Positions 38,129-61,306 of a stretch of DNA of 64,000 nucleotides are shown piece by piece. Source of the DNA: Deltaproteobacteria bacterium (GTDB taxonomy: Bacteria > Desulfobacterota > Desulfomonilia > UBA1062); the NCBI GenBank assembly GCA_018434685.1, contig JAHDOV010000023.1:1-64000 (forward strand), read 5' to 3'. A program made the translations under genes and the position numbers. The notes under the pieces are model-generated. The model worked only from the letters and a program-made list of their open reading frames with translations. It was not told the DNA's origin and ran no database searches. Every line of letters begins with the position of its first letter. Within the stretch, counting starts at the first letter, position 1.

Positions 38129-38493
38129 GGTGAGAGCATGCATCACAAGCCTTGAGCTTAACCGTAGAAATCTCGAAGATAACATGAGAGCAGACATATC
38201 ACGTTTCCAGGGGGACCCTGGGCTGATATGGCAATGGAATACCTTGGCGATGCAATGGTTCATCCCACAGATTATCTGACAGATATAATTGGAGAACTGT
38301 CGAGTTCCAGGACCTCTTCTTCATTGATGGTGTCCACTGGTTCAGGGCAGGTTCAAGATCACCACCGGGACCATTCACTACCCACCCGGCCGCATCCAAG
38401 GCCGTTATAATTTAATCGACTTTTCAAGCGCCGTTACCGACATATCGTTTGTTATGTAGTGTCTCTCAAACAGCCATAGGCGAAAGGAACATC
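38129..38493. other. Intergenic region with direct-repeat copy A
   Basis: A 365-base region after RNase G. No open frame looks coding. It contains the first copy of the direct repeat (38256-38320) that recurs at 40538-40602. An imperfect hairpin with AACT/AGTT arms lies inside the copy. It marks the switch from housekeeping to accessory DNA. Confidence 0.5.
38256..38320 (+). repeat. Degenerate 65-bp direct repeat, copy A
   Basis: Shares GGTTCA, GATTATCTGAC, ATTGGA, AACTGTC and GACCTCTT in the same order and spacing with 40538-40602. About three quarters of positions agree by eye. The two copies enclose a lipoprotein gene and a toxin-antitoxin pair, so they may mark an insertion by recombination or be two members of a dispersed intergenic repeat. 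Confidence 0.65.
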
Positions 38494-42039: not shown

Positions 42040-45000
42040 TTACCCTTGTTTTTCAAGGGCGTCATTCACAAGACCCCAGAGCTGACCAAGCTGGCCATGG
42101 GTTATTCCGTTTTGTACAAGGGGCGCCAGAACGCTTTTCGCCTTGGTCAGCCAGGCGATCTCTTCTTCTTTCCTGCACACACGGTACATGTTCCAGTGGC
42201 TGATGGCATAGTCCACACGGAAATCTACGCGGTCAGGCTCTTTGGTGCAGAGTTCTTCCATAATCTGTATTGACTTTTCAAAATATGAGATAGCTTTATT
42301 GGTACCGCCTGTGGATTCGTAACTTTTCCCCAAGTTATTGAGGCTAACAGAGAGATCTCGGCGGAAATCGGTACGGTCGGGCTCTTTGGTACAAAGTCTT
42401 TCCATCATCAAGAAATACTGATTAAAATACAAGATTGCCTTGTCATTATTGCCCAAAGATTTATAGATATTGCCTAAATAATCAATTGAAACACCGTAAT
42501 AATAATAGAAATCTGTTCGATCGGGCTCTTTTCCACAGAGCTCATCCATAATCTGTAAGGATTTTTCAAAATACAAGATTGCCTTGTCATTATCATTCAT
42601 TGTTTCAAATATCTTACCCAAGTTATTGTAAGTTACGGCATGATAATAGCTAAAATCGGTACGGTTAGGGTCTTTATTACAAAGATCTTCTATAATCCTG
42701 AAGGATTCTTCAAAATATGGGAGTGCTTTGCTGGAATCACTCCTGATATTATAGAAATAATACCCTATATTACTCAAACTGATGAAAAGATCGCGGGAGA
42801 ATTCTATACGATCAGGTTTGTTTAAGCAGAGTTCTCTTCTGAGTTTGAGAGATTTTTCAAAATACAAGATTGCTTTGTCGCCATCGCCAATGGACTGGAA
42901 GATGTATCCTATATTATTGAAGTTGACTGTAATATCTCTAATAAAGTCGGTATCGTCAGGCTCTTTGGCACATAGCATTTCAATGGTCTGTAGTTCTTTT
43001 TTAAAATACAAAAGTGCCTTGCTGCTGTCCCCCATTGCTTGATAGATTCTTGCAACGTTACTGAAGCTGGCGGAGAGATCTCGGCGGAAATCGGTACGGT
43101 CGGGCTCTTTGTTACAAAGTTCTTCCATGATCTGTAAATCTTCTTCGTAATACAGAAGGGCTTTGTTGCTATCCCCTATAGTTTGATATATTTTGCCAAT
43201 GCTACCTATGCAGACTGCGAGTTCGCGACGGAGATCGAGACGTTCGGGCTCTTTAGCTTGGAGCTTTTTAAGACTATCCATTATTGTAGTGAAAAAAAAT
43301 AAAGACCAAAGAGTGTTGCCGGTCTTTTCAAATAGAGTTCCCTTTAAAAAAAAGAAGGTTGATAATTTTAATGAGAAAATTTTCTTTACGAGCTTCAAAA
43401 GAATCTGTTTCAAGAGTGATTCATCTGTATAAGGTTTACTGTAAGCGACCCATTCAAATAATGTACCTGCTATGACTTTATAAACAGCAAAGAGCGGATC
43501 AGTAAGGGAAAAAATATCTTGTAAGAATTTATACAAGCATTTCCCATCTCCTATTTGATAAAGATATATGCCTGTAAAGAGAATAGTGTTAGTTATATCT
43601 CCAGATTTAGAATTGAATTTTGTTAGCCCGTATCCGGCCAGCATCTGATAGTAACTCTTCCGGGCCTGTTCATCCTTCAGGTAGCGGTCCTTCACCGCAT
43701 CCAGCAGCTGCTGATGGAAGAAGCCGATGAGCCCTTCCCGGTTTTCTCCGGCATTGTGCAGATATGCAGCCGCCGCCCTTCCCAGCCTTGCCCAGATGTT
43801 CGACGGCAGCCTGTCTTCGCCTTCGCGCTTTAAGAGTTCGAGCAGCTCGCTTTCCAGGAGGCCGTACCGGGAGGAGGCAATGAGGGAGAAGGCATCTCTC
43901 ACCAGCTGCCTGCCGTGGTCCTCCTCGAGGCGGGCAAGAACCTGGGCAAAAAGCCCGGGTATGGTGCCTGGCATCTGGTCGATACGGTCCGTGATCTCTT
44001 CGAACCGGGGATACACCCGCAGCTCCTCGCAGGCCACGGTCAGATACAGGGGCTTGTCTGCGTCGGCCTTGCCCAGGAGCAACTCCATCTGGTCCCTGCC
44101 CCGCTTTCTGTCGTGGCCGAGGCCTTTGCGGAAAACCTCCAGGCGGTCTTTGACAAGAGCACGGCTGTTGTCTGAGGGCAGGCTCTGCATCCAAGTGACA
44201 GGGATGCCTGCCCTGACGGCTGCATCCACGGTCTGTCCGGGCAGGGTGCTGACCACCATCCTGACGTTTTCCGGCAGACGCTTAGGCAGCCAGTTCAGGG
44301 TATGGGCATGGAACGTAGGCATCATCTGGTTCAGGGCATCGATGAAGATGACCACCCTGCCCTGGCGGGCAGCGGTATTAAGCGTCAGGCGGAAGGCCTC
44401 GCTGATCTTGTCCATGTTGACCAGTTCTGTTGCATCGAACGGTATATCGAAGCGCCGGGACACGGTCTCGATGATGTTGAGCAGCAGTCTGTCCACCTCA
44501 TGGGACATGGGGCTTGCCCCCACGAACCTGGTGACCAGGCAATCATCGGGATGATTTTTCCGCCACGTGCGTGCTGCCACGGCCATGACCGCGGACTTGC
44601 CGCTGCCGGCCTCGCCCGCTAGCACGAAAGGCATGTGCCTTCCGGCATCGTTCAGATAATCCGCAATGCTTCCCAGGGTGTCTTCCCGGCCGATGAAGAT
44701 GCGGGAGCGCTGTTCCATGAACCTCAGGTGATGCGTGTCTTCTATGACCAGCGGGTCGGTCTCTGCTTCTGACTCAGGATACTCATCCTCTATGGCCTGC
44801 CAGAGATCTTCCAGCACTGCTTCCCCGAATGTTTCCAGTCCCTCCAGATAAACATCGCTGTACCGGTTGATGACTTTGCACTGTTTTTCATTCAGGCGTG
44901 CATGCTCATCGTTGTCGAGGAGGTTGTCCTCCCCGACGATCTCCCTGAGCAGGGCCATGTCCTGTTCCGACAGGCCATCACCCAGCTCTGCCTTGGCCTC

Positions 45001-45600
45001 GAGCCAGTTGACACGCAGGCCCCTGTACGTGCAGGGATAGCTCTCCTCAATATGCCCGTAAAGGCTGTCATTGCTGAACGCCTCGCGGATGTCATCCTTC
45101 AGTTTTGAGAGCCTGCCTGAGGCATCCGGGTTTTCCGCATTGGCATCCGGCCGCTTGTTCTCAGGAACCTTAGAGATAAATGCCGGATCCCTAAAATAGA
45201 AAAATGCCCGTGGTTTCATGGCATGGTTCTTCAGCACGCCGTGGTAGATCTCAAGGGCTGTGACGGAATGCCCATCTTCGAACTCCTTCAGCCAGTCGTA
45301 GCGTGCCATATCAGGCACGTCATATGTGTCAGGCACCCACCCGTACCGCTCGCCCAGGATGCCGATGAAGAACGGGCGGCAGTTCTCGATCTCGTCCAGA
45401 CAGATCTCCAGGACTTTGCCGCTCTCGGCCTGCTCCTCGGTCACGCCCCAGCGCAGGTCCACATCCACAAGGTGCAGCCCCTTCTTCAGGCAGCGTTCCT
45501 TCAATTCCGGAAACACGTATCGCACAAGGTAGTCGCGTTCCGAGTGCATGTCCCTGAACGTAGACGATATGAATATGCGGATGGTTCGTTCCTGTTTCAT
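42040..45600 (-). CDS. DUF4062-STAND NTPase-TPR protein
   Basis: 1,186 residues. Residues 7-130 are a DUF4062 domain (IRIFISSTFRDMHSERDYLV; LHLVDVDLRWGVT). A NACHT/STAND NTPase follows, with P-loop GEAGSGKS (329-336), the segment FVGASPMSHEVDRLLLNI and Walker B VVIFIDALNQM. From about 770 to the end are TPR units with a repeated TDFRRDLSVSLNN register. The domain order resembles the eukaryotic nephrocystin-3/NWD group. STAND proteins are usually sensors that oligomerise after ligand binding; a defence role is inferred from domains and neighbours. A sigma-54-like promoter lies upstream. Near-identical 48-bp DNA repeats inside the TPR part indicate recent duplication. Confidence 0.88.
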   Translation of the reverse strand: MKQERTIRIFISSTFRDMHSERDYLVRYVFPELKERCLKKGLHLVDVDLRWGVTEEQAESGKVLEICLDEIENCRPFFIGILGERYGWVPDTYDVPDMARYDWLKEFEDGHSVTALEIYHGVLKNHAMKPRAFFYFRDPAFISKVPENKRPDANAENPDASGRLSKLKDDIREAFSNDSLYGHIEESYPCTYRGLRVNWLEAKAELGDGLSEQDMALLREIVGEDNLLDNDEHARLNEKQCKVINRYSDVYLEGLETFGEAVLEDLWQAIEDEYPESEAETDPLVIEDTHHLRFMEQRSRIFIGREDTLGSIADYLNDAGRHMPFVLAGEAGSGKSAVMAVAARTWRKNHPDDCLVTRFVGASPMSHEVDRLLLNIIETVSRRFDIPFDATELVNMDKISEAFRLTLNTAARQGRVVIFIDALNQMMPTFHAHTLNWLPKRLPENVRMVVSTLPGQTVDAAVRAGIPVTWMQSLPSDNSRALVKDRLEVFRKGLGHDRKRGRDQMELLLGKADADKPLYLTVACEELRVYPRFEEITDRIDQMPGTIPGLFAQVLARLEEDHGRQLVRDAFSLIASSRYGLLESELLELLKREGEDRLPSNIWARLGRAAAAYLHNAGENREGLIGFFHQQLLDAVKDRYLKDEQARKSYYQMLAGYGLTKFNSKSGDITNTILFTGIYLYQIGDGKCLYKFLQDIFSLTDPLFAVYKVIAGTLFEWVAYSKPYTDESLLKQILLKLVKKIFSLKLSTFFFLKGTLFEKTGNTLWSLFFFTTIMDSLKKLQAKEPERLDLRRELAVCIGSIGKIYQTIGDSNKALLYYEEDLQIMEELCNKEPDRTDFRRDLSASFSNVARIYQAMGDSSKALLYFKKELQTIEMLCAKEPDDTDFIRDITVNFNNIGYIFQSIGDGDKAILYFEKSLKLRRELCLNKPDRIEFSRDLFISLSNIGYYFYNIRSDSSKALPYFEESFRIIEDLCNKDPNRTDFSYYHAVTYNNLGKIFETMNDNDKAILYFEKSLQIMDELCGKEPDRTDFYYYYGVSIDYLGNIYKSLGNNDKAILYFNQYFLMMERLCTKEPDRTDFRRDLSVSLNNLGKSYESTGGTNKAISYFEKSIQIMEELCTKEPDRVDFRVDYAISHWNMYRVCRKEEEIAWLTKAKSVLAPLVQNGITHGQLGQLWGLVNDALEKQG
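42350..43120 (-). repeat. Near-identical DNA repeats in the TPR-coding part
   Basis: Bases 42350-42397 and 43073-43120 are identical over the first 39 bases and differ at one of 48, at an offset of 723 bases (241 codons). A second pair, 26 identical bases beginning at 42424 and 42568, lies 144 bases apart. Protein-level repeats would not need such DNA identity, so recombination or recent duplication has occurred. Confidence 0.7.
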
Positions 45601-47125: not shown

Positions 47126-50100
47126 TCATAGGGGAGTTGCCTTCGGGCTGGCAAGGCTCCGCTCTATCCCCTTGAGTATCAATCCTGCCCTTGCAGGAGA
47201 ACATTGTCTTGAAATCGATTTTGCCCGTTGCCAACATGATTCAGCCTCTTTAACATTTTCTCCATGCCAATAGAGAGTTCCCAACCCCACCCATGCTTCT
47301 GCCTCACGTGACTTCTGGTGATATAGCTGACCGAGACGTATAACTTCCCGGTACTGGATTTCAGCAGCATCCGGTTGGCCTCTCTGATGTGTGATGGCAG
47401 CTCTCAACAAATGCGTTCCAATAATTAGATCATATGAGCTTTCCTGCGTTATGCTCTGCTCTATATCGCAAACGAGAGTATTAGCCGAACCTGGATCATA
47501 CTGGACCAGGAAACACCAAGCCAGACCAAGTTTTGCAGAATATAGGTAGGGGATATAGGAGCATTTCTTTGCATCATTAATGGTCTTTTGAAATATCTCC
47601 ATGGCTTGAACGAGATTGAAGTCATTACTGAGGATAGAACGGGTATACTCAAGCCATGCCCTCAGATGAGATATTGCAACCTTTTCCAAGAGAAGAGAAT
47701 CAAATTCTGCTAGCATGTCAGCCATATTCAAGTGTTCTTCAGACTTGTCAAAGTTCATATTGTCCTTCCATGCTGTTGCTAGAATGCGATGAGCTGCAAT
47801 GGTTCGGGTAATGTCTCCGGAATCCTTTGCCTTTTCTAAAGCGTCATTCGCTAGGGCATACACATCGTCATATTTGTACTGGAGAAGCCTTATGGAAGCT
47901 AAACCCAACAGGTTTGCAGCAGCTTCATCTGTAATTATTGGATCTCCCATTAAGCAGAGACTCAATGCGTTTTCATAGGTTTTATATGCAGCATCGAGAT
48001 CTCCCTTATAAAGGTACAAGGAGCCGCATTCATGGAGCGCTATGGATGATATTCTTCTGTCATCCGATACTGCCTGTGCCCGTATGAGCTGCGCTTCAGC
48101 ATCTTTGTATTTGCCCAGTGAGCTGTAGATGCCGGCAATCTGGGTTATCAGACCTGCGGCATAGGATGATTGACGGTTTCCTTCGGTGATATGGTTGACG
48201 AGCCCGTGAAGACATATTAGACCTTCATGCTGATACCCTCGTGCGGTCCATCGATCACTGAGTTCAAGCTCGTTTGAGTTTATCAGCAAGATCAGATCAT
48301 CCCATCTACAGGTATAGGTAAGATGCATGGGGAGATGCTCTCTGAAATAGGGGTGCATTGCATCCTTGCCTTTCTGATACTCTTCCATGCCTGCAACAGC
48401 AAGGCGTCTATGTCCGGATAGCCTGTCAATCCAGTAGTCACCTGCCTTCTTGTTGTCACAAAGCCAGTCAGTCAGAGATTTGTGGGATAACCGTATCCGA
48501 TCATCCATAAATCTCAGCAACGAGCCAAAGGAATCAGCGATGTTGTTAAAATCATAACTGTTCAGACCGAGAATGGCTGAAAGAAATTTTTGATCAAGCG
48601 GTTCCTGTGCCGCCGATATCAGCTCCAGAAAAGGGCGGCATTCATGCTTATAGTATGCAAGGTCATATGCGACAGCTGCAGGAGCGGTTTTTTGGGGAGA
48701 ACATTGTTTTTTGATAAATTGCAGGAAAGCCTTACCCAATCCCTGTGAATGCGTGGGAGGGAACTGGCGCTTCAAGAAATTCAGGAACACCTGACCCAAT
48801 CCCTGTGGAAATGTATCTATGCCATCGATTGAAAGGTATCCGAAAAGAATGTCGTTGCATATATGCTCAGCATAAAGAAATGCACCTTCACTTTTGTGGA
48901 GAATGTTCTCGATGAGGTTATCTACGTCCTGCCGGCCTTCGAACTTCGATGAAAGCCTGTGATGAAGGTAGTTGCGGATGTCGGAGCGATTTTCTTCGTT
49001 CTCGGCATCAAAAACGAACGGTTTAAGATGCTGCAGAGGCACTGTAACATCCTTTTCCGGCCTGCTTGTGATTACTATTCTGATCCACTCCGGCAACCTT
49101 CCCGCATGAGATGCAATAATGTCCGCAAGGGGGTTGTGGAGATCTTCCCTGGCTTCATCGAGCGCATCGATTACAATCAGATAGCGCTGCCTTCCACCAT
49201 CTATCGTACTGCGCAATGGATTCAAAATGAGATAATCAAAAAGTTCCGATGATTGTTTCTGGTTGAGATCGCCTATCTCCGGCAGCATCAGGAGCAGTTT
49301 GCGATAGTCAGGCAACCTGGTGGCAATCTGAAAGGCAATACTTCTGATGACTCGCTGTGCGTTCCTATGGTCCGACTTGTCCCATTCACAGAACTGGACG
49401 GCAATTACTTTGTCCCGGCCGAAGTGAGCCAGATGAGCGACAAATGCGCTCTTTCCTACCCCAGGAGCACCGAGAAGCCAGAAGATACGCGAGGTGGGAT
49501 ATTCATCCTTATACCACTTCTCGATGACATCGATCAGCCATCCACGTCCCACCAGGCCATTCTTCAGCAATTGCGAGATACGCGAGACCGATGAGATGGG
49601 TTTCAGGTGTTCTTCCAGTGTTCTGATTTCTCCGGCAAAACGTCTGCTTTCGTCGCTCTCCACGACTCGAACGATTTCGGCGAGCTTTTCTTGATACCAG
49701 TTCTTCCAAACCGTTTCGCCTGCAGAATTCTGCTCCTGCCAGTCATGCATATCAAGCCACTGGATATGGCTGATACTGCTTGGAGGCATTACCTCTTTTT
49801 CGTTTTCCACCAGTATGGTCTGAATGTTTCCCCCTTTTGCACCGATGGCGATGGCGATCTCATCGAGGCATACGCCGGGGTCGCGTGTGGAATGCTTGGA
49901 GAGAAAGGACATAAAACGGTGGCACTTCGTTATGCCGTCTGTAATGGAGCACCGCCAGTCATCTCCAGGCAAGATCCTGGTCTTGTCGAACCAGACATCA
50001 TGTCCACGTTTTTCAAGATCTGTCTTTATACATCGAACGAGTTTCTTGCTACTATCATGCCCATAGCTGAGAAAGATTCGCAAAGGGTCAACAGATTTTT

Positions 50101-50206
50101 CCTGATCGAACTCATAGAGGCAGTCTTCACACAAATATTTGCCCCGTTTCTTGCTGAAAATGACATTTTCAGAGCTGCACTTGGGGCAAATGAGATCCTT
50201 TGTCAT
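47126..50206 (-). CDS. Zinc-ribbon TIR-STAND NTPase-TPR protein
   Basis: 1,026 residues. A zinc ribbon with Cys 7, 10, 26 and 29 is followed by a TIR domain (43-165): RIFLSYGHDSSKKLV, VWFDKTRILPGDDW, and CLDEIAIA, where Glu116 occupies the NAD-cleaving position. A STAND NTPase has P-loop GAPGVGKS (246-253), Walker B LIVIDALDEA and TSRPEKDV. The C-terminal third is TPR-like. Such fusions resemble antiphage NLR-like proteins in which sensing triggers TIR NAD+ cleavage or signalling; the trigger is unknown. It lies 83 bases after the RyR/TrkA gene, probably in the same operon. ATG 50206 starts the zinc ribbon; longer in-frame extension to 50254 is not supported. Confidence 0.88.
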   Translation of the reverse strand: MTKDLICPKCSSENVIFSKKRGKYLCEDCLYEFDQEKSVDPLRIFLSYGHDSSKKLVRCIKTDLEKRGHDVWFDKTRILPGDDWRCSITDGITKCHRFMSFLSKHSTRDPGVCLDEIAIAIGAKGGNIQTILVENEKEVMPPSSISHIQWLDMHDWQEQNSAGETVWKNWYQEKLAEIVRVVESDESRRFAGEIRTLEEHLKPISSVSRISQLLKNGLVGRGWLIDVIEKWYKDEYPTSRIFWLLGAPGVGKSAFVAHLAHFGRDKVIAVQFCEWDKSDHRNAQRVIRSIAFQIATRLPDYRKLLLMLPEIGDLNQKQSSELFDYLILNPLRSTIDGGRQRYLIVIDALDEAREDLHNPLADIIASHAGRLPEWIRIVITSRPEKDVTVPLQHLKPFVFDAENEENRSDIRNYLHHRLSSKFEGRQDVDNLIENILHKSEGAFLYAEHICNDILFGYLSIDGIDTFPQGLGQVFLNFLKRQFPPTHSQGLGKAFLQFIKKQCSPQKTAPAAVAYDLAYYKHECRPFLELISAAQEPLDQKFLSAILGLNSYDFNNIADSFGSLLRFMDDRIRLSHKSLTDWLCDNKKAGDYWIDRLSGHRRLAVAGMEEYQKGKDAMHPYFREHLPMHLTYTCRWDDLILLINSNELELSDRWTARGYQHEGLICLHGLVNHITEGNRQSSYAAGLITQIAGIYSSLGKYKDAEAQLIRAQAVSDDRRISSIALHECGSLYLYKGDLDAAYKTYENALSLCLMGDPIITDEAAANLLGLASIRLLQYKYDDVYALANDALEKAKDSGDITRTIAAHRILATAWKDNMNFDKSEEHLNMADMLAEFDSLLLEKVAISHLRAWLEYTRSILSNDFNLVQAMEIFQKTINDAKKCSYIPYLYSAKLGLAWCFLVQYDPGSANTLVCDIEQSITQESSYDLIIGTHLLRAAITHQRGQPDAAEIQYREVIRLGQLYHQKSREAEAWVGLGTLYWHGENVKEAESCWQRAKSISRQCSPARAGLILKGIERSLASPKATPL

Positions 50207-50288
50207 GGCGCTACCCCTTGGTCTTGCCCAAGGAAGACTCTGTACAGGATACAAGGTTGATTGAGCTGATTCTCTCCTTTTCTCAGCA

Positions 50289-52100
50289 TTATTGCTCTAC
50301 CCGGCATACCTTAAACCCCGCATCTGCAAGGATTTGAGGCATGTTTTTGATAGCGTCTCTGTCTTTATCCTTGTCTTCTTCAGAAAGTTCGTCCCAGGGA
50401 ATAAGGGTGGGGTTTGTCTTTTTCTCATTGTCTTTAACCGGGCCCTTTACCCATCCGTCACGCTTGCGTTCCTTCACAAATCGGTCATGTTCCATCACAG
50501 CCATCAACCCGATCTCTTCATTGGTGAATTCAAAGAGCGGTTCATCCCAGTTTGTCAGTTTCATAATGTCGCAGCCGATAGATGACAGCTTGTTCCTGAT
50601 ATCTTCTGCCTGCTGCCGGTTCGATTCCTTCAATGACTCAGGCAATTCAGTCCAGGGGACCATGGATGGGTTGTCATCTGTTGTGAGGCCCTTCTCCATT
50701 TCACCCATCAAGTAGTTGTAGTGTATGGAAAACGCCAACTGCTCATAGACGCCGCGGGACACCACATCATCTGTGCATGCCTGGTCAATGAGCCCGAAGG
50801 GCAGCAGGTTGTCAAAGCTGTCCTGGAACTTATCACTCCCATTCAGAAGGCTCGAGAGTCCTGTATCGTGCTCCATTCTGAGGATTATGGATATTTCCCG
50901 ACTCGAGATCTTCTGCTTCAGGATCAAGGCCGTCGTTATTGCCAGTGATTCGTTATCCAGGCAGATATATACATTTGTCACATCGCACACATCTTTGTCG
51001 AAGAGGAAAGCACCATGATAAAACTCGGGGCTTTGTACATCCATATCCAGGGCCCTCAATTCACAGATATGTTCAATGTTCCGGTTCTTTAAGCACAAAA
51101 GATCTTTCTTTACCTGTGCATGCTTATCTATGATGGTGATTCGCGGGACATTCATCTTATACTTCAGGCCCCTGTGATATGCCTCTGCGATGCACTCTGT
51201 CAGGTTCTCCCCCAAACGGCCCATACCGACAATCACAATATGCGGCCTGACCGGAGAATGTTCCTGCTTATGGGGGAAAGGCGGATATTTCTCGAGCAGT
51301 ATCCTCGACCCGCTGTCAAAGATATTAAAAAAATCGAGCCTGAAGGCATCATTGGTGCCGAACTGCAGCTCTTTTTCCCTGAGCAGATGGCACAGTTGGG
51401 GGTCCGTCACATGGACAAGGCAAGTGAGCGCCCTGCCCTTTCTCTGCCTGAGCAGTTCCTGAACATGGACCGCCACTTCGACATTCACCCCATCGTCACC
51501 GCAAACAGAGATGAGGTATTTTGCCTTTTCAACCCTGGACCTGTGAAGCAGTCCGGGATTTGTGGCATTGCCCAAAAAGACAACAATGCCCTTTTCATTG
51601 CATCTGCCGATGAAGCTGTTGTCATCATCCTGCTCGATGACAACCACGGTATAGCCTTTCTCCCGGAACCTCTCGGCAAACAACAGGCCCTTGCGGCCAA
51701 GCCCGCAGATGATCACATGATTGTTAGTGAACATTATTCGTATCAGGTTGAACTGTTCGTGGAAGATCTTGGCCAGGCCGGCCAGTGCTGCATAGCCCAT
51801 GAGTGCCGGGGCCAGAACCCGTGCTATCTGCAGCATCCAGTTCAGATCACCGGACACCGATCCGGATTCGAGGATGAAGAGCTGGAGTGAGAGGTAGATA
51901 TTGTCCCATGGGGTGCGATAGATGTGAGCTGAAAGGGAATGTTCCCTAAACCCGAGATATCCGAGAAGAAACGCTGCTGCCCAGCAGGACATTATCAGCG
52001 GCCACTTGTAATCCTCGACTTGTTGGTGAAGATAATTTACAAATCCTTTGATCTTTGATTGGTTGTTTGATGGTTCCAATTTATGCTCTTTGTGAGTCAT
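50289..52100 (-). CDS. Membrane protein with two TrkA-N domains and RyR-like units
   Basis: 603 residues. Two membrane helices (33-51 and 91-112) precede a first TrkA-N nucleotide-binding domain (IICGLGRKG, 131-138) and a second (IVIVGMGRLG, about 288-297), as in potassium-channel RCK proteins, although no TxGYG pore signature is seen. The C-terminus has two ryanodine-receptor-type units, WTELPESLKESNRQQAE and EHDRFVKERKRDGWVKGP...PWDELSEEDK. RyR units in prokaryotes occur in nucleotide-conflict operons and are thought to bind a nucleotide-derived ligand. AGGAGAAGGTGA precedes ATG 52100. A ligand-gated ion flux is inferred. Confidence 0.85.
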   Translation of the reverse strand: MTHKEHKLEPSNNQSKIKGFVNYLHQQVEDYKWPLIMSCWAAAFLLGYLGFREHSLSAHIYRTPWDNIYLSLQLFILESGSVSGDLNWMLQIARVLAPALMGYAALAGLAKIFHEQFNLIRIMFTNNHVIICGLGRKGLLFAERFREKGYTVVVIEQDDDNSFIGRCNEKGIVVFLGNATNPGLLHRSRVEKAKYLISVCGDDGVNVEVAVHVQELLRQRKGRALTCLVHVTDPQLCHLLREKELQFGTNDAFRLDFFNIFDSGSRILLEKYPPFPHKQEHSPVRPHIVIVGMGRLGENLTECIAEAYHRGLKYKMNVPRITIIDKHAQVKKDLLCLKNRNIEHICELRALDMDVQSPEFYHGAFLFDKDVCDVTNVYICLDNESLAITTALILKQKISSREISIILRMEHDTGLSSLLNGSDKFQDSFDNLLPFGLIDQACTDDVVSRGVYEQLAFSIHYNYLMGEMEKGLTTDDNPSMVPWTELPESLKESNRQQAEDIRNKLSSIGCDIMKLTNWDEPLFEFTNEEIGLMAVMEHDRFVKERKRDGWVKGPVKDNEKKTNPTLIPWDELSEEDKDKDRDAIKNMPQILADAGFKVCRVEQ

Positions 52101-52433: not shown

Positions 52434-54131
52434 TTACACAACATTCTCCAGCTCTGCAAAGCTCATCAGCCGCACCCAGTCCTGCGACTCTGTGAGCATC
52501 AGGCTCTTGGCAGCCAGCAGCATGGATTCGAGCTCTTCATGGGTTTTCACACTTTGATACTGATCATTCAATGTGCTTAAATGATCTGCCATGACCGAGC
52601 TGCGTGAGGCAATGCGCGAGAACTCCATGAGCAGGCGGTAGCCGTTCATGGCGGCAGCAGCGGCAGGCAGCGTGACAGCAATAACAGATATGACCTTCTC
52701 AGCCATATGAACCCAATGCCCAAATAACTGGCCATATATATTCGTCATAGAGATCGCCAGGTGTGCGCAGGTAACTGCAATGGCCAGACCAAACAGCCAT
52801 AGGCCCAACTGTTTGAAGATATGGTTATTTCTCTGGTTAGTTTTTGCTTTGTCCCGGTGGTAATTAAGCTGGTCTACTATCCAGCATGTCTTGATATACT
52901 CTCCATAAGCATCAGCATCTTGCCCTGCAGGCCGCTTGAAAGCCGGTATTGCATAAAGAATCTCATCAAGGGTTTTATTTGCCCAGGTTTCGCTCTCAGC
53001 CGAATACAGACCAACCGGCAGATTGGATGAATGGCTTGGATTCATTCCACATGCAGCCAAGTAGAATGCTGTCCGTATTCCCTCTGTCAGGGCGCGGCAC
53101 CTCAGCCAGTTTTTGTGTACGTGAGCACGGTGAGCACGCAAGATCATTACAAGCAGGCTGATAAGGGAAACCAGCTCACAAAAATATGCCAAAAGAGAGA
53201 TGATGCGATTATCATGAAAGACCACTGCCACAGCCATGAAGAACACTGCCGCAGTGGAGAGGATATATGCGTTCCGGCCCGTATGCTGATATGTTTCTTG
53301 GTTCGCTTTGGCGATGATGGAGGCACGGACATAATATGGAAGAAGATAATCGGATACCACCTGTTTCAATTCCTTGGGGATCGGCTCACCACAGTCTTTG
53401 CCAAATAGCTTGTCGTATTGATTGAGAGAATACGATTGAAATTCCTCATCGCGTATCGGCCAGGCATTGAATGCATCGAGTTTGTCAAGATGACGGGCAT
53501 TGAGTGCACCCCCATTTTCCAATTTAAGATCGTGCTGTTCTTTCGTCGAAATGATGAAAACCGGTTTTCCCTCCTTGATTGCCAGGGATACGATCTCCGC
53601 TGTCCCTCCCCCGCCACGTGCAGGTTTGCCATCCCACAGGGCTATCAGTATGTCGCTGTGCTCAACTACATACTCCCCTATCCTGCGATATCCGCTTCGA
53701 CGAGCATCAACAGTATCTGCCCCCTGTGTGGCATTGGCAACTTTCATGTCCAGTTCGATACAGCGGTGGGACTTTTTGAGTAATGTTGTGAACTCATCTT
53801 TTGATTTAGGAGTGACAAAGTCATCCAGATAGTCTTCCCTTTTGAAAGGAAGTGCAGCGATGAGACGAGTATTGGTTTGCTCAAGCACTATCCGGGCGAC
53901 GAGCCTGTCAGCGCCTTCAGCTAAGGGAGAGATGATAGTGAAAGACACAGGTGTGGCCTGTAATTCTTGTATATTCTTTCGAGATTCTGCATTAAATGCC
54001 TCAAGATACCTGGTTTCCACTATTTCCCTAATTTGCTGTTCAAGATTCTGCTCATCAGTTAAGCTGCGATGGCCGGTTACGCCAATGCGTATACGGAAAG
54101 ACACAATTGATTTCGGTTGTTCTTTATTCAT
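52434..54131 (-). CDS. SLOG-domain protein with C-terminal membrane segments
   Basis: 565 residues. The N-terminal 200 residues are a Rossmann-like SLOG domain: GVTGHR (17-22), SPLAEGAD (68-75) and ALWDGKPARGGGG (164-176) form the nucleotide-binding signature. Residues 285-565 carry two pairs of hydrophobic helices (STAAVFFMAVAVVF, SLISLLVMIL, LFGLAIAVTCAHLAI, SVIAVTLPAAAAAMNG) separated by conserved soluble stretches, like SLATT-type effectors. The likely action is that a nucleotide ligand bound by SLOG opens or assembles a membrane pore. It has a sigma-54 promoter (54251-54266). It leads an apparent minus-strand operon with the RyR/TrkA and TIR-STAND genes, though the 164-base spacer leaves room for a further promoter. 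Confidence 0.85.
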   Translation of the reverse strand: MNKEQPKSIVSFRIRIGVTGHRSLTDEQNLEQQIREIVETRYLEAFNAESRKNIQELQATPVSFTIISPLAEGADRLVARIVLEQTNTRLIAALPFKREDYLDDFVTPKSKDEFTTLLKKSHRCIELDMKVANATQGADTVDARRSGYRRIGEYVVEHSDILIALWDGKPARGGGGTAEIVSLAIKEGKPVFIISTKEQHDLKLENGGALNARHLDKLDAFNAWPIRDEEFQSYSLNQYDKLFGKDCGEPIPKELKQVVSDYLLPYYVRASIIAKANQETYQHTGRNAYILSTAAVFFMAVAVVFHDNRIISLLAYFCELVSLISLLVMILRAHRAHVHKNWLRCRALTEGIRTAFYLAACGMNPSHSSNLPVGLYSAESETWANKTLDEILYAIPAFKRPAGQDADAYGEYIKTCWIVDQLNYHRDKAKTNQRNNHIFKQLGLWLFGLAIAVTCAHLAISMTNIYGQLFGHWVHMAEKVISVIAVTLPAAAAAMNGYRLLMEFSRIASRSSVMADHLSTLNDQYQSVKTHEELESMLLAAKSLMLTESQDWVRLMSFAELENVV

Positions 54132-54266: not shown

Positions 54267-54381
54267 CATGTACTATGTTGTTTTTCTTTTAATGTTTATT
54301 GCGATATGATAGTGTGTCAAACTGCAAGCATAATATATTGATACATGTAATCAGCACCAATTTTCATAGAGGAGGATTCTC

Positions 54382-57165
54382 ATGTCACAGAAAATCGTCA
54401 TCTATGGCGACCTGATTCAGGACATCAACCTTCTGGAGCAACCCCTACCCCCGGCGTTCCATTTCCAGACCCTTCCCCATACAGTTCAGAAGACCACCGA
54501 TGGGGGTGTTGCATACATGAAAAAGCTGCTGGAAGGAACGTTGACAGGCTGCACAATTACTGCCCCCCAAGTCGATCAAGGACAATGGGAAAAGAACGCA
54601 GTAAGGGTTTTTCAGACCTGGAAACAGTTTCCTGCATCGGCAAAAAGCAGGAATAAGGTGTGGCGCATCTCCAAACTCATGGGTCGATCATCTTGTACAG
54701 AGATTCCCAAAGTCATTAAATCGATTAAAAAAGCCCCTCAGGCAGATCTCATGTTGATAGACAGTATGGGGATGGGCTTCTTAGGAAAAGAATTGATGTG
54801 GGAAGACCCGAAGGCAACTCACCTGAAAGAGTCTGAAAAATGGGAGCCGTTTGAGTCTCTGGTGAGAAAGGTGAACCCAAAAGATATAATTTTCAAGCTC
54901 TCTTCTTTTCGTGAAGGCCTTCCACTGCCCTGCACCTCTGAATTATTGAAAAAGACCACGGTAATTCTTTCGGTCAAGGCACTCCGGGAACGGGGGGCTG
55001 ACATTTCAGAAGGGCTGTCCTGGGACAAGACCATCGAGGACACAGTCAGGGAATTCAGCAATGGACTCTCCAGTCATGACCTGGCTCTGTGCAAGCGCGT
55101 GGTGGTGCTCTTCTCCACCGAGGGGGCTGCAGTCTTCGAGCCTGAAAAAGAACCCGGCAAAGAAGAAATCAAGTATTTGAAAAAATTCATCTACCATCCC
55201 TGCCAATACGAAGGGACTTTCAAGACACAGCACCCCGGTCATTTCTTCGGCGACATCTCAATACTCACCGCTGCCATCATACGTCATATCATGGATCCGA
55301 AAGGATTCCCCCTGTTTGCAGCTCTTTGTCTTGGTCTGTCGGCCATGCGCACTGTTCACGAAAAAGGGATTACAGAAGACAAAACAGGCCAATTTGATAT
55401 CAACATGCCTGCAAAGACAGCCTGTGACCTCCTTTCACTTCCGTACACTCTGAAAGAATTAGAGAATACAAAAGGGGCTACGAAAAAGAAAGAAAAGGAA
55501 AGAAAAGAACAAATAGAAAGCATAAAAAAACAGCTCAATGACTGCCTCAATAAGTTTGCCTGCTCGTTCCAGCACGACCTGCTCCACGATGGTGAGTTGA
55601 AAAAACAGCATGAGGGAGAATCCAATCTCCTGCGAGATACCACCGGTTTTGGCTATGAATACGTGGCTGCCAAGGCATCTGAGATCGTCATAAAGGGTGC
55701 GCGAAAGGCATTGAATCATGTCCCCATTGTCTCATATGGCAATTTCCTGACCGCTGACCGGCAAGAGATCGAACGGATCAATTCCATAAGAAAACTGATC
55801 ACTACCTACTGTGCAGCACCTGGTGACAACAAGCCCCTCTCCATCGCAGTCTTCGGACCTCCGGGCGCAGGCAAGTCCTTTGCCATTAAACAGCTGGCCA
55901 ACGAGCTCGGCTTCGAGAAGAAACTGATCCATGAGTTCAACCTCTCCCAGTTCTGCAGAGATACTATGCAGGAACTCCATACCGCATTCCACCAGGTCCG
56001 TGATGCCTCCATGAAGGGTAAAATCCCACTCATCTTCTGGGATGAGTTCGACACCGACAAATACCAGTGGCTCAAGGAGTTCCTTGCGCCCATGCAGGAT
56101 GCCGAATTCAGGGTCGGCAGTGTCACTCATCCCTTCAACAAGGCGATCTTCATCTTTGCAGGAGGAGTAACCAAAACGTTTCAGGAACTCGATGCGCGAA
56201 AGGATGATGAGTATAACAAGGGACAAAAAGTTCCCGATTTCATAAGTCGTCTCAGGGGGTATGTAAACATCAAGGGACCAAATAAACCCGGAAGTGACGA
56301 CCAAGAAAAGGAATCTGTAAATGAAACAGACCCCAATCAGGTAAAGGAACCTGTAAAGGAAACAGACTCCAACCATGAGTATCTCATTCGCCGGGCTATA
56401 CTGTTCCGCTCAATCCTGGAGCGTTTCTGCAGTCATCTGATCGGGGATGACGGCACTGCTGCAGTGAGCGGTCCGCTGGTACAGGCATTCCTGCGGGTTA
56501 AGAAGTACAAGCACGGTGCGCGGTCCATGGAATCGCTCATCACCATGAGCAGCCTTGGAGGTGTCAGTTTCTTTGGTGAATCTTCACTGCCGTCGGATGA
56601 CCTTATGAACCTTCATGTGGATGTGAAAAACTTCCGCACACATCTACAGGCAAACACTCTGGAACAGCCCATAATAGAACTGATCGCCGCAGCATATCAC
56701 GAGGCATGGTGCCAAGAGAAAAAGGATCAAGGCTACGAGCTGGGTGAGGTTCGATGTGACGATGAAACCAAGAAGAAAACCCACCCGCTGCTGAAAGCTT
56801 ATACCGAGCTCAGCGAAAAGGATAAAGAGGCTAACAGGATAACCGCGCGGCTCACCCAGCCAAAGCTCAACAATGTCGGGTTAAAGCTGGCATGGAAATG
56901 CGGTGTGGATAAAACCGACATCGACCTTAACGAATATAAGGAAACGCTCAGCAATATCGAGCACGATATCTGGCTGAGAGAGCATCTTCTGAGCGGCTAC
57001 GAGGATGCAGACAACACAGAAGATATACTCCGCCTTCACAGGAATATGAGGCAGTTCAAAGAACTGAGCGATGAAGATAAAAAGCTCGACAGTGTCATCA
57101 TAGAAGCATTGGAAGAGGTTTTAGAAGACAAGCAGTACACGTTGGGGCCTGCCGAGAAAGAATAG
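54382..57165 (+). CDS. PfkB-like / AAA+ ATPase / RyR-like fusion protein
   Basis: 927 residues. The N-terminal 330 residues resemble the ribokinase (PfkB) fold: IVIYGDLIQDINL at the start and GHFFGDISILTAA near 286-298, although the catalytic GAGD is altered. A charged helical linker (KKKEKERKEQIESIKK) leads to an AAA+ domain with P-loop GPPGAGKS (492-499) and Walker B LIFWDEFDTD. The C-terminus has two RyR-like units, HEAWCQEKKDQGYEL and EHDIWLREHLLSGYED. GAGGAGG precedes the start. It is divergent from the SLOG gene; both strands of this island thus use RyR-type domains. The enzymatic role is unknown; a ligand-dependent chaperone or remodeller is plausible. Confidence 0.82.
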   Translation: MSQKIVIYGDLIQDINLLEQPLPPAFHFQTLPHTVQKTTDGGVAYMKKLLEGTLTGCTITAPQVDQGQWEKNAVRVFQTWKQFPASAKSRNKVWRISKLMGRSSCTEIPKVIKSIKKAPQADLMLIDSMGMGFLGKELMWEDPKATHLKESEKWEPFESLVRKVNPKDIIFKLSSFREGLPLPCTSELLKKTTVILSVKALRERGADISEGLSWDKTIEDTVREFSNGLSSHDLALCKRVVVLFSTEGAAVFEPEKEPGKEEIKYLKKFIYHPCQYEGTFKTQHPGHFFGDISILTAAIIRHIMDPKGFPLFAALCLGLSAMRTVHEKGITEDKTGQFDINMPAKTACDLLSLPYTLKELENTKGATKKKEKERKEQIESIKKQLNDCLNKFACSFQHDLLHDGELKKQHEGESNLLRDTTGFGYEYVAAKASEIVIKGARKALNHVPIVSYGNFLTADRQEIERINSIRKLITTYCAAPGDNKPLSIAVFGPPGAGKSFAIKQLANELGFEKKLIHEFNLSQFCRDTMQELHTAFHQVRDASMKGKIPLIFWDEFDTDKYQWLKEFLAPMQDAEFRVGSVTHPFNKAIFIFAGGVTKTFQELDARKDDEYNKGQKVPDFISRLRGYVNIKGPNKPGSDDQEKESVNETDPNQVKEPVKETDSNHEYLIRRAILFRSILERFCSHLIGDDGTAAVSGPLVQAFLRVKKYKHGARSMESLITMSSLGGVSFFGESSLPSDDLMNLHVDVKNFRTHLQANTLEQPIIELIAAAYHEAWCQEKKDQGYELGEVRCDDETKKKTHPLLKAYTELSEKDKEANRITARLTQPKLNNVGLKLAWKCGVDKTDIDLNEYKETLSNIEHDIWLREHLLSGYEDADNTEDILRLHRNMRQFKELSDEDKKLDSVIIEALEEVLEDKQYTLGPAEKE

Positions 57166-57303: not shown

Positions 57304-57711
57304 ATGCCAAAACGTGTGTTCATAAGTTTTAAGGCTGAGGATAAGAAAAAAGTTGATGGTCTCCGTCTGCTTGCAAAGAATCCCAACTATGAACTCGAGT
57401 TTTATGATGAATCAATACGTGCTGCTATTGACAGCCGAAATGCAGTGTATATTAAAAGCATTATTCGGGAGAAAATCGAGAGAAGTGGGGTAGTTTTGTG
57501 CCTGGTAAATACTGATATGCACACAAGTTCCTGGGTGAATTGGGAATTGGAGACCGCTATAAAGCTGGATAAACCAATTGTAGCTATGGCAGTAAAGGAT
57601 GTGCAGGAGGCAATATTGCCAACACCAATTCGAGGGAAAGTACATTTCTACTCATGGAACCCTGCATCACTTGGTAGCTACCTGGTGAATGCCGGAATTA
57701 TAGGATCATAA
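57304..57711 (+). CDS. TIR-like protein, ThsB/DUF1863 family
   Basis: 135 residues, a complete single-domain TIR-like protein. KRVFISFKAEDKKKVDGL, YDESI, IKSIIREKIERSGVVLCLV and SSWVNWELETAIKLDKPIV fit the DUF1863 family that includes the Thoeris sensor ThsB; the glutamate in WELE is in the catalytic position. ThsB enzymes make a cyclic ADP-ribose isomer that activates the SLOG-containing ThsA. No ThsA (SIR2-SLOG) is in the window; the closest SLOG protein is at 52434. GAGGG precedes ATG 57304. Confidence 0.88.
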   Translation: MPKRVFISFKAEDKKKVDGLRLLAKNPNYELEFYDESIRAAIDSRNAVYIKSIIREKIERSGVVLCLVNTDMHTSSWVNWELETAIKLDKPIVAMAVKDVQEAILPTPIRGKVHFYSWNPASLGSYLVNAGIIGS

Positions 57712-58050: not shown

Positions 58051-59004
58051 ATGGGACAAATGAAATGCCCTGAGAAAACAACAACCATGAAAAGAGCCGG
58101 TTCGGGAGGAGGCAAGGCTATGGAGGTTAACAGAATCAGCATCAACGGCAAGACAGTCCAGCTCGGCCAGCCATACCGGGCGCAAACCTCGGAACTTGTG
58201 GGCAGGGACAGGGAGATGAAGAAGATCCTGGCCGCATGGATGGGCAGTGCGGGCGACATAACTCTCTCGCCTCTCCTGGTGGGAGGCCCGGGCATGGGCA
58301 AGAACCGCCTGGTCTACGAATGCGCCCGTGTCTGTGCAAAGGAGCTTTACATATTCCAGGGGCACGAAGACGTCTCTGCCGAAGACCTCATATGTGCGGT
58401 ACGGTTCAGCGACGACCGTGAAAGGCAGATGGACTATATTATGTCACCCATTGTCACGGCCATGATCAGGGGCGGCATATGCTTCATCGACGAGATAGCC
58501 AAGATAAGGCCACGGGCCCTTGCCCCTCTGGCAAGCCTGCTTGACGAACGCCGCTACATCGATTCAATCATCCTCGGTGAGCGTATCTATGCGCACCCTG
58601 GCTTCCGCCTGGTCGGGGCCACCAACACCATCGATTTGCAGCAGAACCAGCTCCCTGACTTCATCCAGTCGAGGATGCGGCCTGTTATAACCGTTGAGTT
58701 TCCCGGACGTGCAGAGATAGACGCCATCGTCACCTCCCGTTTCCACAGCCTCAACTCCAGGAGCCGTCCTCTGCTCGATAAGTACTGGAATCTCTGGGCG
58801 GAGCGTTATGGAGACCATCCGCCCACCCCGCGCGACAGCATCTACATCTTCGGCTATGCCCACAAGCTTGCCGATTTCGAATCCGCCGGCAGTGACAGGC
58901 CGCTTGTGCTGGATGGATCGGTCAAGGCAGCTCCCATAACAGAGGCCCACATCGCCCGTGCCATGGAGGCGTTCTTTAAGCCAACCGACAAGAGGAGCGC
59001 CTGA
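58051..59004 (+). CDS. MoxR-type AAA+ ATPase
   Basis: 317 residues. After a 45-residue lead, VGRDREMKKIL starts the AAA+ core; the Walker A is GGPGMGKN (78-85), where asparagine replaces the usual Ser/Thr after lysine. Walker B GGICFIDEIAKI, sensor 1 GATNTIDLQQ and the arginine-finger region FIQSRMRPVI are MoxR-like. MoxR proteins are chaperone-like ATPases that usually act with a partner protein. It is the first gene of a cassette with the 766-aa and TPR genes. GGGAGG precedes ATG 58051; ATG 58120 is an alternative start. Confidence 0.86.
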   Translation: MGQMKCPEKTTTMKRAGSGGGKAMEVNRISINGKTVQLGQPYRAQTSELVGRDREMKKILAAWMGSAGDITLSPLLVGGPGMGKNRLVYECARVCAKELYIFQGHEDVSAEDLICAVRFSDDRERQMDYIMSPIVTAMIRGGICFIDEIAKIRPRALAPLASLLDERRYIDSIILGERIYAHPGFRLVGATNTIDLQQNQLPDFIQSRMRPVITVEFPGRAEIDAIVTSRFHSLNSRSRPLLDKYWNLWAERYGDHPPTPRDSIYIFGYAHKLADFESAGSDRPLVLDGSVKAAPITEAHIARAMEAFFKPTDKRSA

Positions 59005-59005
59005 C

Positions 59006-61306
59006 ATGAGAGAGAGTTTGATCATCCATAAACTGGACGATGCCGAGCTCTTCGTGGTGCCTGCAATCCACTATCACCAGTTCTTTGCTCACGAAGTCCA
59101 TCGCATCTGCGCTGATCCGGACACGCGGCCGGAGGCTGTTGCCGTGGAGCTCGGCCCCCAGATTGCCCAAGAGGCCGGGGACTGGCTCCGAAAGCTGTGC
59201 AGAAAAAAACACAAATACGGTATGCTTCCGGTCATGCTGGGGATCACAAAAATAAACGATCTGATCCGGCCATCACTGAGGGAAAAGGCCATAAGCCTTC
59301 AGCAGGAAAACCGCATGGACCTCAGTGAACTCCCTTCCGATCTTTTGAAACAGGAGCTGGACTTTGCAAGCCACTCCATGCTCCTGCTTTCACCCACAGA
59401 CAGCATCATCGAGGCACTCAGGTGCGGGGTGGAACTCGCCCTCCCCGTTTTCGGCGTGGATCTGGACGACATAGCCGGATATGACCATGAGACTGTACAC
59501 ATGGAGGTTCCCTTCCCGGAGCAGGACCTGTCGGTCTATGTGTCCAGAAATGCACCTCATGTCAGCCGTTACCGTTTCGATGAGATCGACCTTCGCAGGG
59601 AGATCGCCATGGCCGCCCGTCTTAAAGCGCTCCTAAAGAAGTATCGCAGGGTTCTCTTCACCTGCGGCATCGGGCACTGGCTGAGCATCAGAAAACTCCT
59701 GGACGACCCAGACCTCAGGCCTGCAAGGATTCCCGAGCAGAATGAACTCAAGACAGACAGATTCAGACGTGTGCTGGTCCACCCATCCATAGCCGTACAG
59801 TATATGGACATGTTCCCTGCACTGACCATTGCATATGAAGCATACCGCAGGCCCGCGACCACAGGCGAAAGAGAAATAGAAGACCTGCCGCCATCAGATT
59901 CTTGTGTTTTGTTCTACGAACAGCTTGAAATTGCCTACAGTGAATACCTCAAAAAATCTCGTGACAAGAAATCTGCAAACTTTAAGGAAACTTACCCTGA
60001 GTGTTTCAGGCAGTTTGAGGCATATCTCAACAATATCTGCCTTCTGGATAATGCCCCGGTCCCGGGCATTTTCACTGCGCTTAGGGCTTCAAAGGAGATG
60101 GTGAACGAACCCTTCATGGAAGTTCTGTCAAATACCATGATGGAGTTCCCCTGGGCCTCGCAAGATCAGTTCCCTGACCTGCCGATGGTAAGCCCCCAGG
60201 AGCGCAGTTTCCCGGGGGCAGTGGTGCTTCATGGAGGAACGCTGCCCAGTTCCAGGCGGTTCCATGTACGTTCCTATCATCCGAGCAGCCTGCATACCGA
60301 TTCTCTCGGCAAACTCCCGTATCGCAGGAAAAGCCACGAATCAACTGGCTGGAGTTCCCTCTCATACACCTGGGTGCCCTGGGACCGGCTTGTCACTGCA
60401 CTGTCGCTGCGCGCAACTGCAACAACAGGGCGAATGCGCACGGGCAAAAATGCTGTGGCATTCGAAGGCAGCCTGCTGGGCGGCATCGATGTCAAGAAAA
60501 CCCTTCGTGCATACGCGAGGGGAGAACAATCACTCTATGTCAGGGATACTATCCCTGAAAGATCCGGACAAGCCGGGTTCATGGAAAGATTCCCGGTGGT
60601 GTGGATTCTTGATCAGAATCCTGACGAAAATGCATGGCTCAGCGCACAATTCATCCCCTGCGATCACATAATGCCCCATGTAACGGACAGGCCTCGCCTA
60701 CAGCGCATCATGGATGAGCAGGGCGATAACATCGTTGCAGTCATTGGTTACAAGACGAGAGATACATCCAGCGGTCTGTTTGCCTCCTCTAACAGCATAG
60801 CTACGGACCACCTCTATGGGCTTGCCGTGTTGCAGCCGCTTTGCTGGACCAACAAGCAGCATGCCTGCTGGTTTGAAGCTACGGGCTACAATCGCAATCC
60901 GGTTTGTTCCAACACATCTTTCAACAATTATACAGGCAGCATCTCTCTGCTCTACCAGGAACGATTAGGGTTAAATGTGAGAGAATATCACTGGTCAACC
61001 GTTCTGATCCTTACAGCCCTTCCCTATGCAAGGGGAAATATCACCATCGTTGTTCCCGATGGTTACCAGGTGGAGCAGATCGTGCACCAAAAAGCGCATG
61101 AATACCGTGTACATATTAATACGGTGCCGCTCGATCATTTTTCCCGGACAGAGACCAACCGCATGGCAATCTGCCATTTTGCGCAGGCCATGACCACTGA
61201 ACCAGAGTACACCTTTTCAAAGGAGACAGAGAAGATCATCGGTGAACGACAGACAGAGTATCTTCACCTTGTGCCACATGAAATCCTGGAATTCGGAACC
61301 AGATAA
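59006..61306 (+). CDS. Large protein of unknown function, TraB/EreA-like N-terminus
   Basis: 766 residues. AVAVELGPQIAQE (44-56) and a conserved histidine in CGIGHWLSIRK near residue 215 recall the TraB/PrgY/EreA superfamily, and HKLDDAELFVVPAIHYHQFF begins the domain; this is by eye and weak. The remaining 500 residues are not recognised. No membrane segments are evident. It starts one base after the MoxR stop, with AGAGGA upstream, so it is co-translated with MoxR and is the likely client or effector of that ATPase. Confidence 0.72.
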   Translation: MRESLIIHKLDDAELFVVPAIHYHQFFAHEVHRICADPDTRPEAVAVELGPQIAQEAGDWLRKLCRKKHKYGMLPVMLGITKINDLIRPSLREKAISLQQENRMDLSELPSDLLKQELDFASHSMLLLSPTDSIIEALRCGVELALPVFGVDLDDIAGYDHETVHMEVPFPEQDLSVYVSRNAPHVSRYRFDEIDLRREIAMAARLKALLKKYRRVLFTCGIGHWLSIRKLLDDPDLRPARIPEQNELKTDRFRRVLVHPSIAVQYMDMFPALTIAYEAYRRPATTGEREIEDLPPSDSCVLFYEQLEIAYSEYLKKSRDKKSANFKETYPECFRQFEAYLNNICLLDNAPVPGIFTALRASKEMVNEPFMEVLSNTMMEFPWASQDQFPDLPMVSPQERSFPGAVVLHGGTLPSSRRFHVRSYHPSSLHTDSLGKLPYRRKSHESTGWSSLSYTWVPWDRLVTALSLRATATTGRMRTGKNAVAFEGSLLGGIDVKKTLRAYARGEQSLYVRDTIPERSGQAGFMERFPVVWILDQNPDENAWLSAQFIPCDHIMPHVTDRPRLQRIMDEQGDNIVAVIGYKTRDTSSGLFASSNSIATDHLYGLAVLQPLCWTNKQHACWFEATGYNRNPVCSNTSFNNYTGSISLLYQERLGLNVREYHWSTVLILTALPYARGNITIVVPDGYQVEQIVHQKAHEYRVHINTVPLDHFSRTETNRMAICHFAQAMTTEPEYTFSKETEKIIGERQTEYLHLVPHEILEFGTR

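Follow-up and report, generated by a model that had tools for sequence, protein, structure and literature searches.

A pseudo-ribokinase/AAA+/tandem-RyR protein in a bacterial conflict-gene island: a candidate nucleotide-gated regulator with TIR and SLOG neighbours

A stretch of 64,000 nucleotides of DNA from a Deltaproteobacteria bacterium (contig JAHDOV010000023.1; hereafter 'the window') contains a gene encoding one 927-residue protein, in which a divergent ribokinase-like (PfkB) domain, an AAA+ ATPase module and two RyR repeats are joined in a single chain (Table 1). That order of domains, which the original prediction had read from the nucleotide sequence, was recovered both by Pfam, with matches to AAA (E 7e-7) and, over two stretches, to RyR (E 3.6e-16), and by predicted structures. 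The ATG assigned as the start of this target gene is supported by an AGGAGG sequence 6 nucleotides before it, and by full-length homologues (31-44% identity) that begin at the same motif. Such relatives, from Brocadiia, Poribacteria, Planctomycetota and WS1 MAGs, could be aligned with the target from end to end, and the homologue alignment includes one further row that is ended by a contig edge. Neither PADLOC nor NCBIfam offers a model for the protein, its first 440 residues display zero Pfam matches, and scans for promoters and terminators returned chance-level results only.

Table 1. Features of the target gene and its neighbours, in window coordinates
Feature	Position	Strand	Details
DUF4062-STAND-TPR	42040..45600	-	relatives adjoin target homologues in L008/L091, L036 and L087
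Zn-ribbon-TIR-NACHT(NPHP3_N)-TPR	47126..50254	-	34 bp after TrkA-RyR
TrkA-RyR (TrkA-N Rossmann, N-terminal hydrophobic region, tandem RyR)	50289..52100	-	Pfam TrkA_N 7.8e-20, RyR 6.4e-16
SLOG-SLATT, divergent from target	52434..54131	-	putative SLOG about 53463-54116, then 2TM SLATT-like C-terminus
Shine-Dalgarno AGGAGG	54370..54375	+	6 nt upstream of ATG 54382, read directly
Target gene, pseudo-PfkB / AAA+ / RyR-RyR	54382..57165	+	one 927-aa protein
N-domain, ribokinase/PfkB fold	54382..55569	+	residues 1-396; predicted structure, structural matches, motif table
AAA+ ATPase module	55699..56631	+	residues about 440-750; Pfam AAA E 7e-7
Walker A GPPGAGKS	55855..55878	+	residues 492-499; G492, P494, G495, G497 and K498 invariant in homologue alignment
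Walker B FWDEFD	56035..56052	+	residues 552-557; invariant in homologue alignment
RyR repeat 1	56641..56901	+	residues 754-840; H773, W776, K780, R791, H801; Asn818 at RyDEP D117 position
RyR repeat 2	56914..57150	+	residues 845-923; H861, W864, H886, D903, a full RyDEP-type H/W/H/D set
ThsB-like TIR	57304..57711	+	138 bp downstream of target; Pfam ThsB_TIR E 4.6e-18, PADLOC ThsB 8.2e-16

The identity of the N-terminal domain was settled by structure prediction alone, because sequence methods gave either no support or a negligible amount of it: Pfam, NCBIfam and a PDB profile search returned nothing for the domain, the Pfam PfkB family (PF00294) matched 0 of 20 members above its cut-off, and a profile-profile alignment with true PfkB proteins was colinear and weak (P about 0.01). 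A model built from 38 homologous N-domains (pLDDT 83.8, pTM 0.87), which replaced an earlier one made from 7 sequences that was poor in this region, gave a best 50 listed structural matches that all fall within the ribokinase/PfkB or sugar-kinase families (Z 16.8-19.4 over 249-294 residues, with pseudouridine kinase a good match at Z 18.5), and Foldseek agreed, at E values down to 8.9e-9. The ribokinase fold on which the original prediction had been staked is thus the fold that was found. Like the ribokinase-family enzymes, such as tagatose-6-P kinase (2jg1) and pseudouridine kinase (7c1x), the domain retains the whole fold, the GDxxxD motif (G9, D10 and D14), the GG motif (G41 and G42) and a VxVxxxxxGA strand motif; unlike them, it is part of a multidomain regulator, lies below Pfam detection, and lacks the GAGD catalytic motif, at which position the target reads FFGDIS (residues 288-293). 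The position of D291 is occupied in relatives by C, S, M, T, Y, L or N (motif table), and throughout the RyR-bearing lineage GAGD is replaced by FG and then D, C, S, M, T, Y or L, with no conserved acid at or around the site, whereas GDxxxD and GG, on the substrate side, are retained in nearly every member; the catalytic residues are therefore altered, as had been proposed. Given that loss of GAGD across the lineage, the domain is probably a pseudokinase, and probably one that binds a ligand.

The central module scores 30.2 bits against the Pfam AAA model (cut-off 21.2), and it matches the structures of TRIP13, ClpA, NSF, AFG2 and Torsin (Z 11-11.7). Its Walker A and Walker B motifs, sensor 1, a candidate arginine finger (R623) and a sensor-2-like HGxRS motif (711-715) are almost wholly invariant in the alignment of homologues; intact by these signatures, the module should be an active ATPase.

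The C-terminal region matches the RyR family (PF02026) at 59.6 bits, against a cut-off of 27.4, and the predicted structure of residues 754-923 superposes on human RyR3 Repeat12 (Z 14.6, rmsd 3.2 Å, 160 residues) and on a Bacteroides/human chimera (Z 14.2), which together identify the segments as genuine RyR repeats, exactly two in number, and so uphold the second point on which the original prediction could have failed. As in animal Repeat12 (PDB 9ls7, 9l91 and 6uhe), the two repeats of the model make up one clamshell with corresponding adenine- and phosphate-contact residues; the animal ryanodine receptor is a giant Ca2+ channel which, unlike the target, has no AAA+ module or kinase fold. 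Human RyR3 Repeat12 (R12) binds ADP/ATP (AMP-PCP/ADP) through W880, K884 and R895 and closes (PMC12627627), and these contacts correspond to W776, K780 and R791 of the target. A sequence comparison found nucleotide-contact residues to be conserved in the putative cleft of the tandem; the Trp/Lys/Arg contacts of repeat 1 are variable in several relatives.

A second precedent is provided by phage RyR proteins that act on TIR-made cADPR, first reported in 2026, of which RyDEP binds or cleaves the 2'/3'cADPR made by TIR, using residues H75, W78, H100 and D117; most of the assayed RyDEP homologues with conserved residues bind the molecule and do not cut it (PMC13232231). The H-3-W-22-H-17-D spacing of those four residues recurs in bacterial RyR sequences, that of a Bacteroides protein among them, and the target has this spacing, together with the RyR/Repeat12 unit, in common with RyDEP and sponge-type RyR proteins (PF02026; PMC13232231). 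The phage protein is, however, a counter-defence enzyme or sponge, whereas the tandem of the target is joined to an AAA+ module and a pseudokinase, is encoded within an island of a bacterial genome, and has Asn in place of Asp in its first repeat. Across the 20 tandem proteins of the loci collected, the D117-equivalent position is Asn in every first repeat (20/20) and Asp in 17 of 20 second repeats, and His is present in 40 of 40 cases; among single RyR repeats, Asp is found at that position in 12 of 13. It follows from this split at the position of the catalytic Asp that the tandem is, by sequence, an asymmetric pseudo-dimer, and the same split leads to the expectation of one specialised predicted site, binding rather than cutting.

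The target gene is present in 0 of 23 other same-family genomes, and the window copy sits in an acquired island. The left edge of that island is marked by the end of nucleotide similarity to a same-genus genome at window position 38094, which coincides with the end of an RNase G gene, and G+C drops at the island from 0.537 to 0.44-0.49. The island reaches the end of the contig, at 75.7 kb, and carries TIR-NB-ARC, TIR-NACHT, DUF4062 and SLOG/TIR-like genes; taken as a whole (38094-64000 and on to 75730, L124), this large AT-richer region is dense in TIR, STAND (NACHT, NB-ARC), SLOG, DUF4062, WD40 and TPR genes. A MORN_2-repeat lipoprotein-like protein (38449-39459) is encoded close to the left edge, and at 58051-61306, on the strand of the target and TIR genes, the gene for a MoxR-like AAA_5 protein overlaps that for a 782-residue protein that neither Pfam nor NCBIfam matches.

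Immediate neighbours of the target include the ThsB-like TIR protein, in which a Glu lies within an SSWVNWELE stretch, and a divergently transcribed, putative SLOG-SLATT gene. The SLOG-type motifs of the latter (GVTGHR and DGxxxxxGGTAE) were read by eye, its SLATT_1 match (E 1.6e-6) lies below the curated cut-off, and its SLOG relatives match YAcAr (9.5e-5) and, weakly, YpsA/DprA, the window copy itself having no match. The original prediction had described the divergent arrangement, and RyR units that the target shares with the SLOG operon; the SLOG protein itself has no RyR, and the units lie in the next same-strand gene, TrkA-RyR, where the repeats occupy about 50556-50753 and 50295-50528. 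The TIR-NACHT-TPR architecture found beyond that gene also stands beside relatives of the target in L078, L080 and L087 (the L numbers designating loci). In combining TIR and putative SLOG partners, the locus resembles Thoeris, which consists of the TIR protein ThsB and the SIR2-SLOG protein ThsA, the SLOG domain of which binds 3'cADPR (PMC11204291). Unlike Thoeris, the neighbourhood contains AAA+, RyR, SLATT, TrkA and NACHT proteins, and a scan of the genes at 42-75.7 kb turned up no ThsA, whether SIR2-SLOG or TM-macro; membership of Thoeris was rejected because ThsA is lacking.

Sensor-lineage relatives of the target are distributed patchily over several phyla. Full or partial copies were counted in about 8 of the 395 genomes surveyed from the window's phylum, in 6 of the 392 from the one to which L003 belongs and in 9 of the 201 from that of L008; RyR is itself rare in the window's phylum (14/385 genomes). 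The target falls within an 8-row clade of the tree (99/99). No relative was found in phage records or viral contigs, and only three partial matches in plasmids, and both a phage origin and plasmid spread were set aside. Among 29 sensor-lineage loci, the C-terminal module consists of two RyR repeats in 13, two RyR repeats and SLOG in 2 (L091 and L084), one detected RyR in 5, and SLOG or two SLOG domains in 2 (L087 and L088, respectively); it is absent from 5 and cut in 2. In L079, an AAA gene without a sensor module overlaps a SLOG-SLATT gene. Separate RyR or SLOG genes lie nearby in 18 of the 29 loci, versus 1 of 11 orphan-paralogue loci, and TIR genes adjoin 8 of the 29, the corresponding orphan count (0/11) having been obtained with a home-made, less sensitive model. 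The recurrent neighbours are SLOG-SLATT, TrkA-RyR, lone RyR, TIR-NACHT-TPR and DUF4062-NACHT genes, which in places form operon-like runs (AAA-RyR / SLOG-SLATT / TIR-NACHT-TPR in L078; TIR-NACHT-TPR / TIR / SLOG-SLATT / AAA-RyR in L080). The connection that had been drawn between the target and SLOG is strongly supported: genes are fused, one module takes the place of the other, and the two recur side by side, which links RyR and SLOG to a single task. That both respond to the same ligand, as had also been suggested, would be in keeping with published work in which RyR-type and SLOG domains bind cADPR isomers made by TIR.

Small lone RyR genes adjoin the AAA gene in L004, L005, L041, L083, L086 and L089, most of them with a full H/W/H/D set (in that of L004 the second His is replaced by N); by their residues, they could be an off-switch, as candidate signal degraders or sequesterers. 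A separate family of roughly 750 residues (L017-L033 and L043-L052) has the N-domain and AAA core, lacks RyR, and occurs in single-gene contexts without conserved neighbours. These orphan paralogues, 10 of 11 of which form one clade (100/100; L053 lies outside it on a very long branch, its placement unsure), display a motif pattern opposite to that of the RyR lineage, having lost GD/GG and kept PC(Y/F/H)D at the GAGD site, and their loci have no RyR, SLOG or TIR neighbours, bar one RyR fragment beside L053. Clade, neighbours and motif pattern set them apart from the system of the target.

In the literature searched, no description of a pseudo-PfkB/AAA+/RyR architecture was found; a 2015 survey by Burroughs et al., which reportedly dealt with SLOG/SLATT/SMODS nucleotide-centric conflict systems, lay outside that search. 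Those systems have in common with the target locus putative SLOG and SLATT partners, TIR neighbours and predicted nucleotide signalling. Each component domain family is already known, and the target is best described as a variant of nucleotide-signalling conflict systems.

The setting of the gene, a mobile and immune-like island with TIR and SLOG neighbours, argues for a role in defence, and the protein probably helps to switch on a cell-defence response. The proposal that it does so by regulating a TIR/SLOG/STAND conflict (immune-like) system, driven by ATP and gated by a nucleotide, is made tentatively, with a confidence that falls a little short of even. In such a process, infection or damage would lead a TIR enzyme (the ThsB-like TIR, the TIR-NACHT-TPR protein, or both) to make an ADP-ribose-type nucleotide, which would enter the cleft between the two RyR repeats, for which fold and contact residues were computed, and bring about closure of the clamshell; R12 (ATP/ADP) and RyDEP (2'/3'cADPR) suggest the kind of ligand involved. 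Closure would then alter the state of an AAA+ ring, the module being intact by sequence, and the ring would act upon a partner, to judge from recurrent adjacency most likely the SLOG-SLATT or TrkA-RyR membrane protein, with perturbation of the membrane as the outcome. The N-terminal pseudokinase, so named from a computed fold and signature loss, may serve as a second head, for the binding of a ligand or a partner. On the simplest account, RyR and SLOG can stand in for one another as receptors of a TIR-made nucleotide, and the AAA+ ring would turn binding into action on a membrane partner. Since a TIR gene lies beside only 8 of the 29 loci, other signals are possible; since R12 binds ATP/ADP, the ligand could be a plain adenine nucleotide; and RelA/SpoT in L003 likewise leaves room for other ligands. 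The fuller proposal, of a previously undescribed immune-switch family in which exchangeable RyR/SLOG modules read TIR-made cyclic ADP-ribose and drive an AAA+ ring with a pseudo-ribokinase head, is considered rather unlikely.

We know of no cellular function assigned to bacterial RyR domains. Phage RyR proteins that bind or cut TIR-made cADPR raise the question of where the host-side RyR receptor lies, and the target family, with its tandems fused to an ATPase, their replacement by SLOG in relatives, and several loci beside TIR genes, is a concrete candidate. The Asn/Asp asymmetry makes for a sharp prediction, open to testing by a single point mutation, and an RyR receptor in bacteria would be relevant to the long-standing question of whether animal ryanodine receptors are acted on by cyclic ADP-ribose, and in what way. 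If the immune-switch reading were true, animal Repeat12 would have arisen from a bacterial receptor for immune signals, or from an ancestor common to both, and phage RyDEP would represent captured or mimicked host receptor domains.

Three other explanations were weighed. According to the first, the target is a regulator of energy or ion homeostasis, in which the RyR tandem senses ATP/ADP and the AAA+ module, together with TrkA-RyR, tunes the flux of K+ or other ions with no involvement of an infection signal or TIR product. The binding of AMP-PCP/ADP by R12 through residues conserved in the target (PMC12627627) is consistent with this, as is the presence of adjoining TrkA-RyR genes at the window copy, L006 and L084; most copies, however, have no neighbouring TrkA-RyR, and the genes belong to a patchy, acquired island rich in TIR, STAND and SLOG and are missing from 23 same-family genomes, whereas genes for housekeeping ion control should be better conserved. 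This explanation is thought quite unlikely. In the second, the target terminates signals: the RyR tandem would hydrolyse or sequester host-made cADPR in the manner of RyDEP, and the AAA+ module would reset or disassemble the complex, averting autotoxicity. While the complete H/W/H/D set of repeat 2 and the lone RyR genes that mostly share it speak for such a machine, repeat 1 always has Asn at the acid position, most of the assayed RyDEP homologues with conserved residues bind without cutting (PMC13232231), and SLOG replaces RyR in L087 and L088, where a receptor fits better than a hydrolase; a terminating role is held to be distinctly improbable.

Equally doubtful is the third, that the pseudokinase rather than RyR is the primary sensor, of a different nucleotide ((p)ppGpp-like, a nucleoside or an oligonucleotide): the PfkB fold, the GDxxxD and GG motifs kept in nearly all RyR-lineage members, the match to pseudouridine kinase and a RelA_SpoT-SLOG-RyR protein directly upstream in L003 accord with it, but RelA/SpoT occurs at one locus only, and the N-domain has diverged much further than the AAA core, any single conserved ligand pocket in it being putative. 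The L003 protein (L003:5372-7966) is a RelA/SpoT-TPR-SLOG-RyR fusion, its SLOG part being LSDAT-like and sub-threshold, encoded directly upstream of the target homologue; RyR-TPR proteins of about 780 residues, possibly with a similar SLOG-like part, are found in L128-L130.
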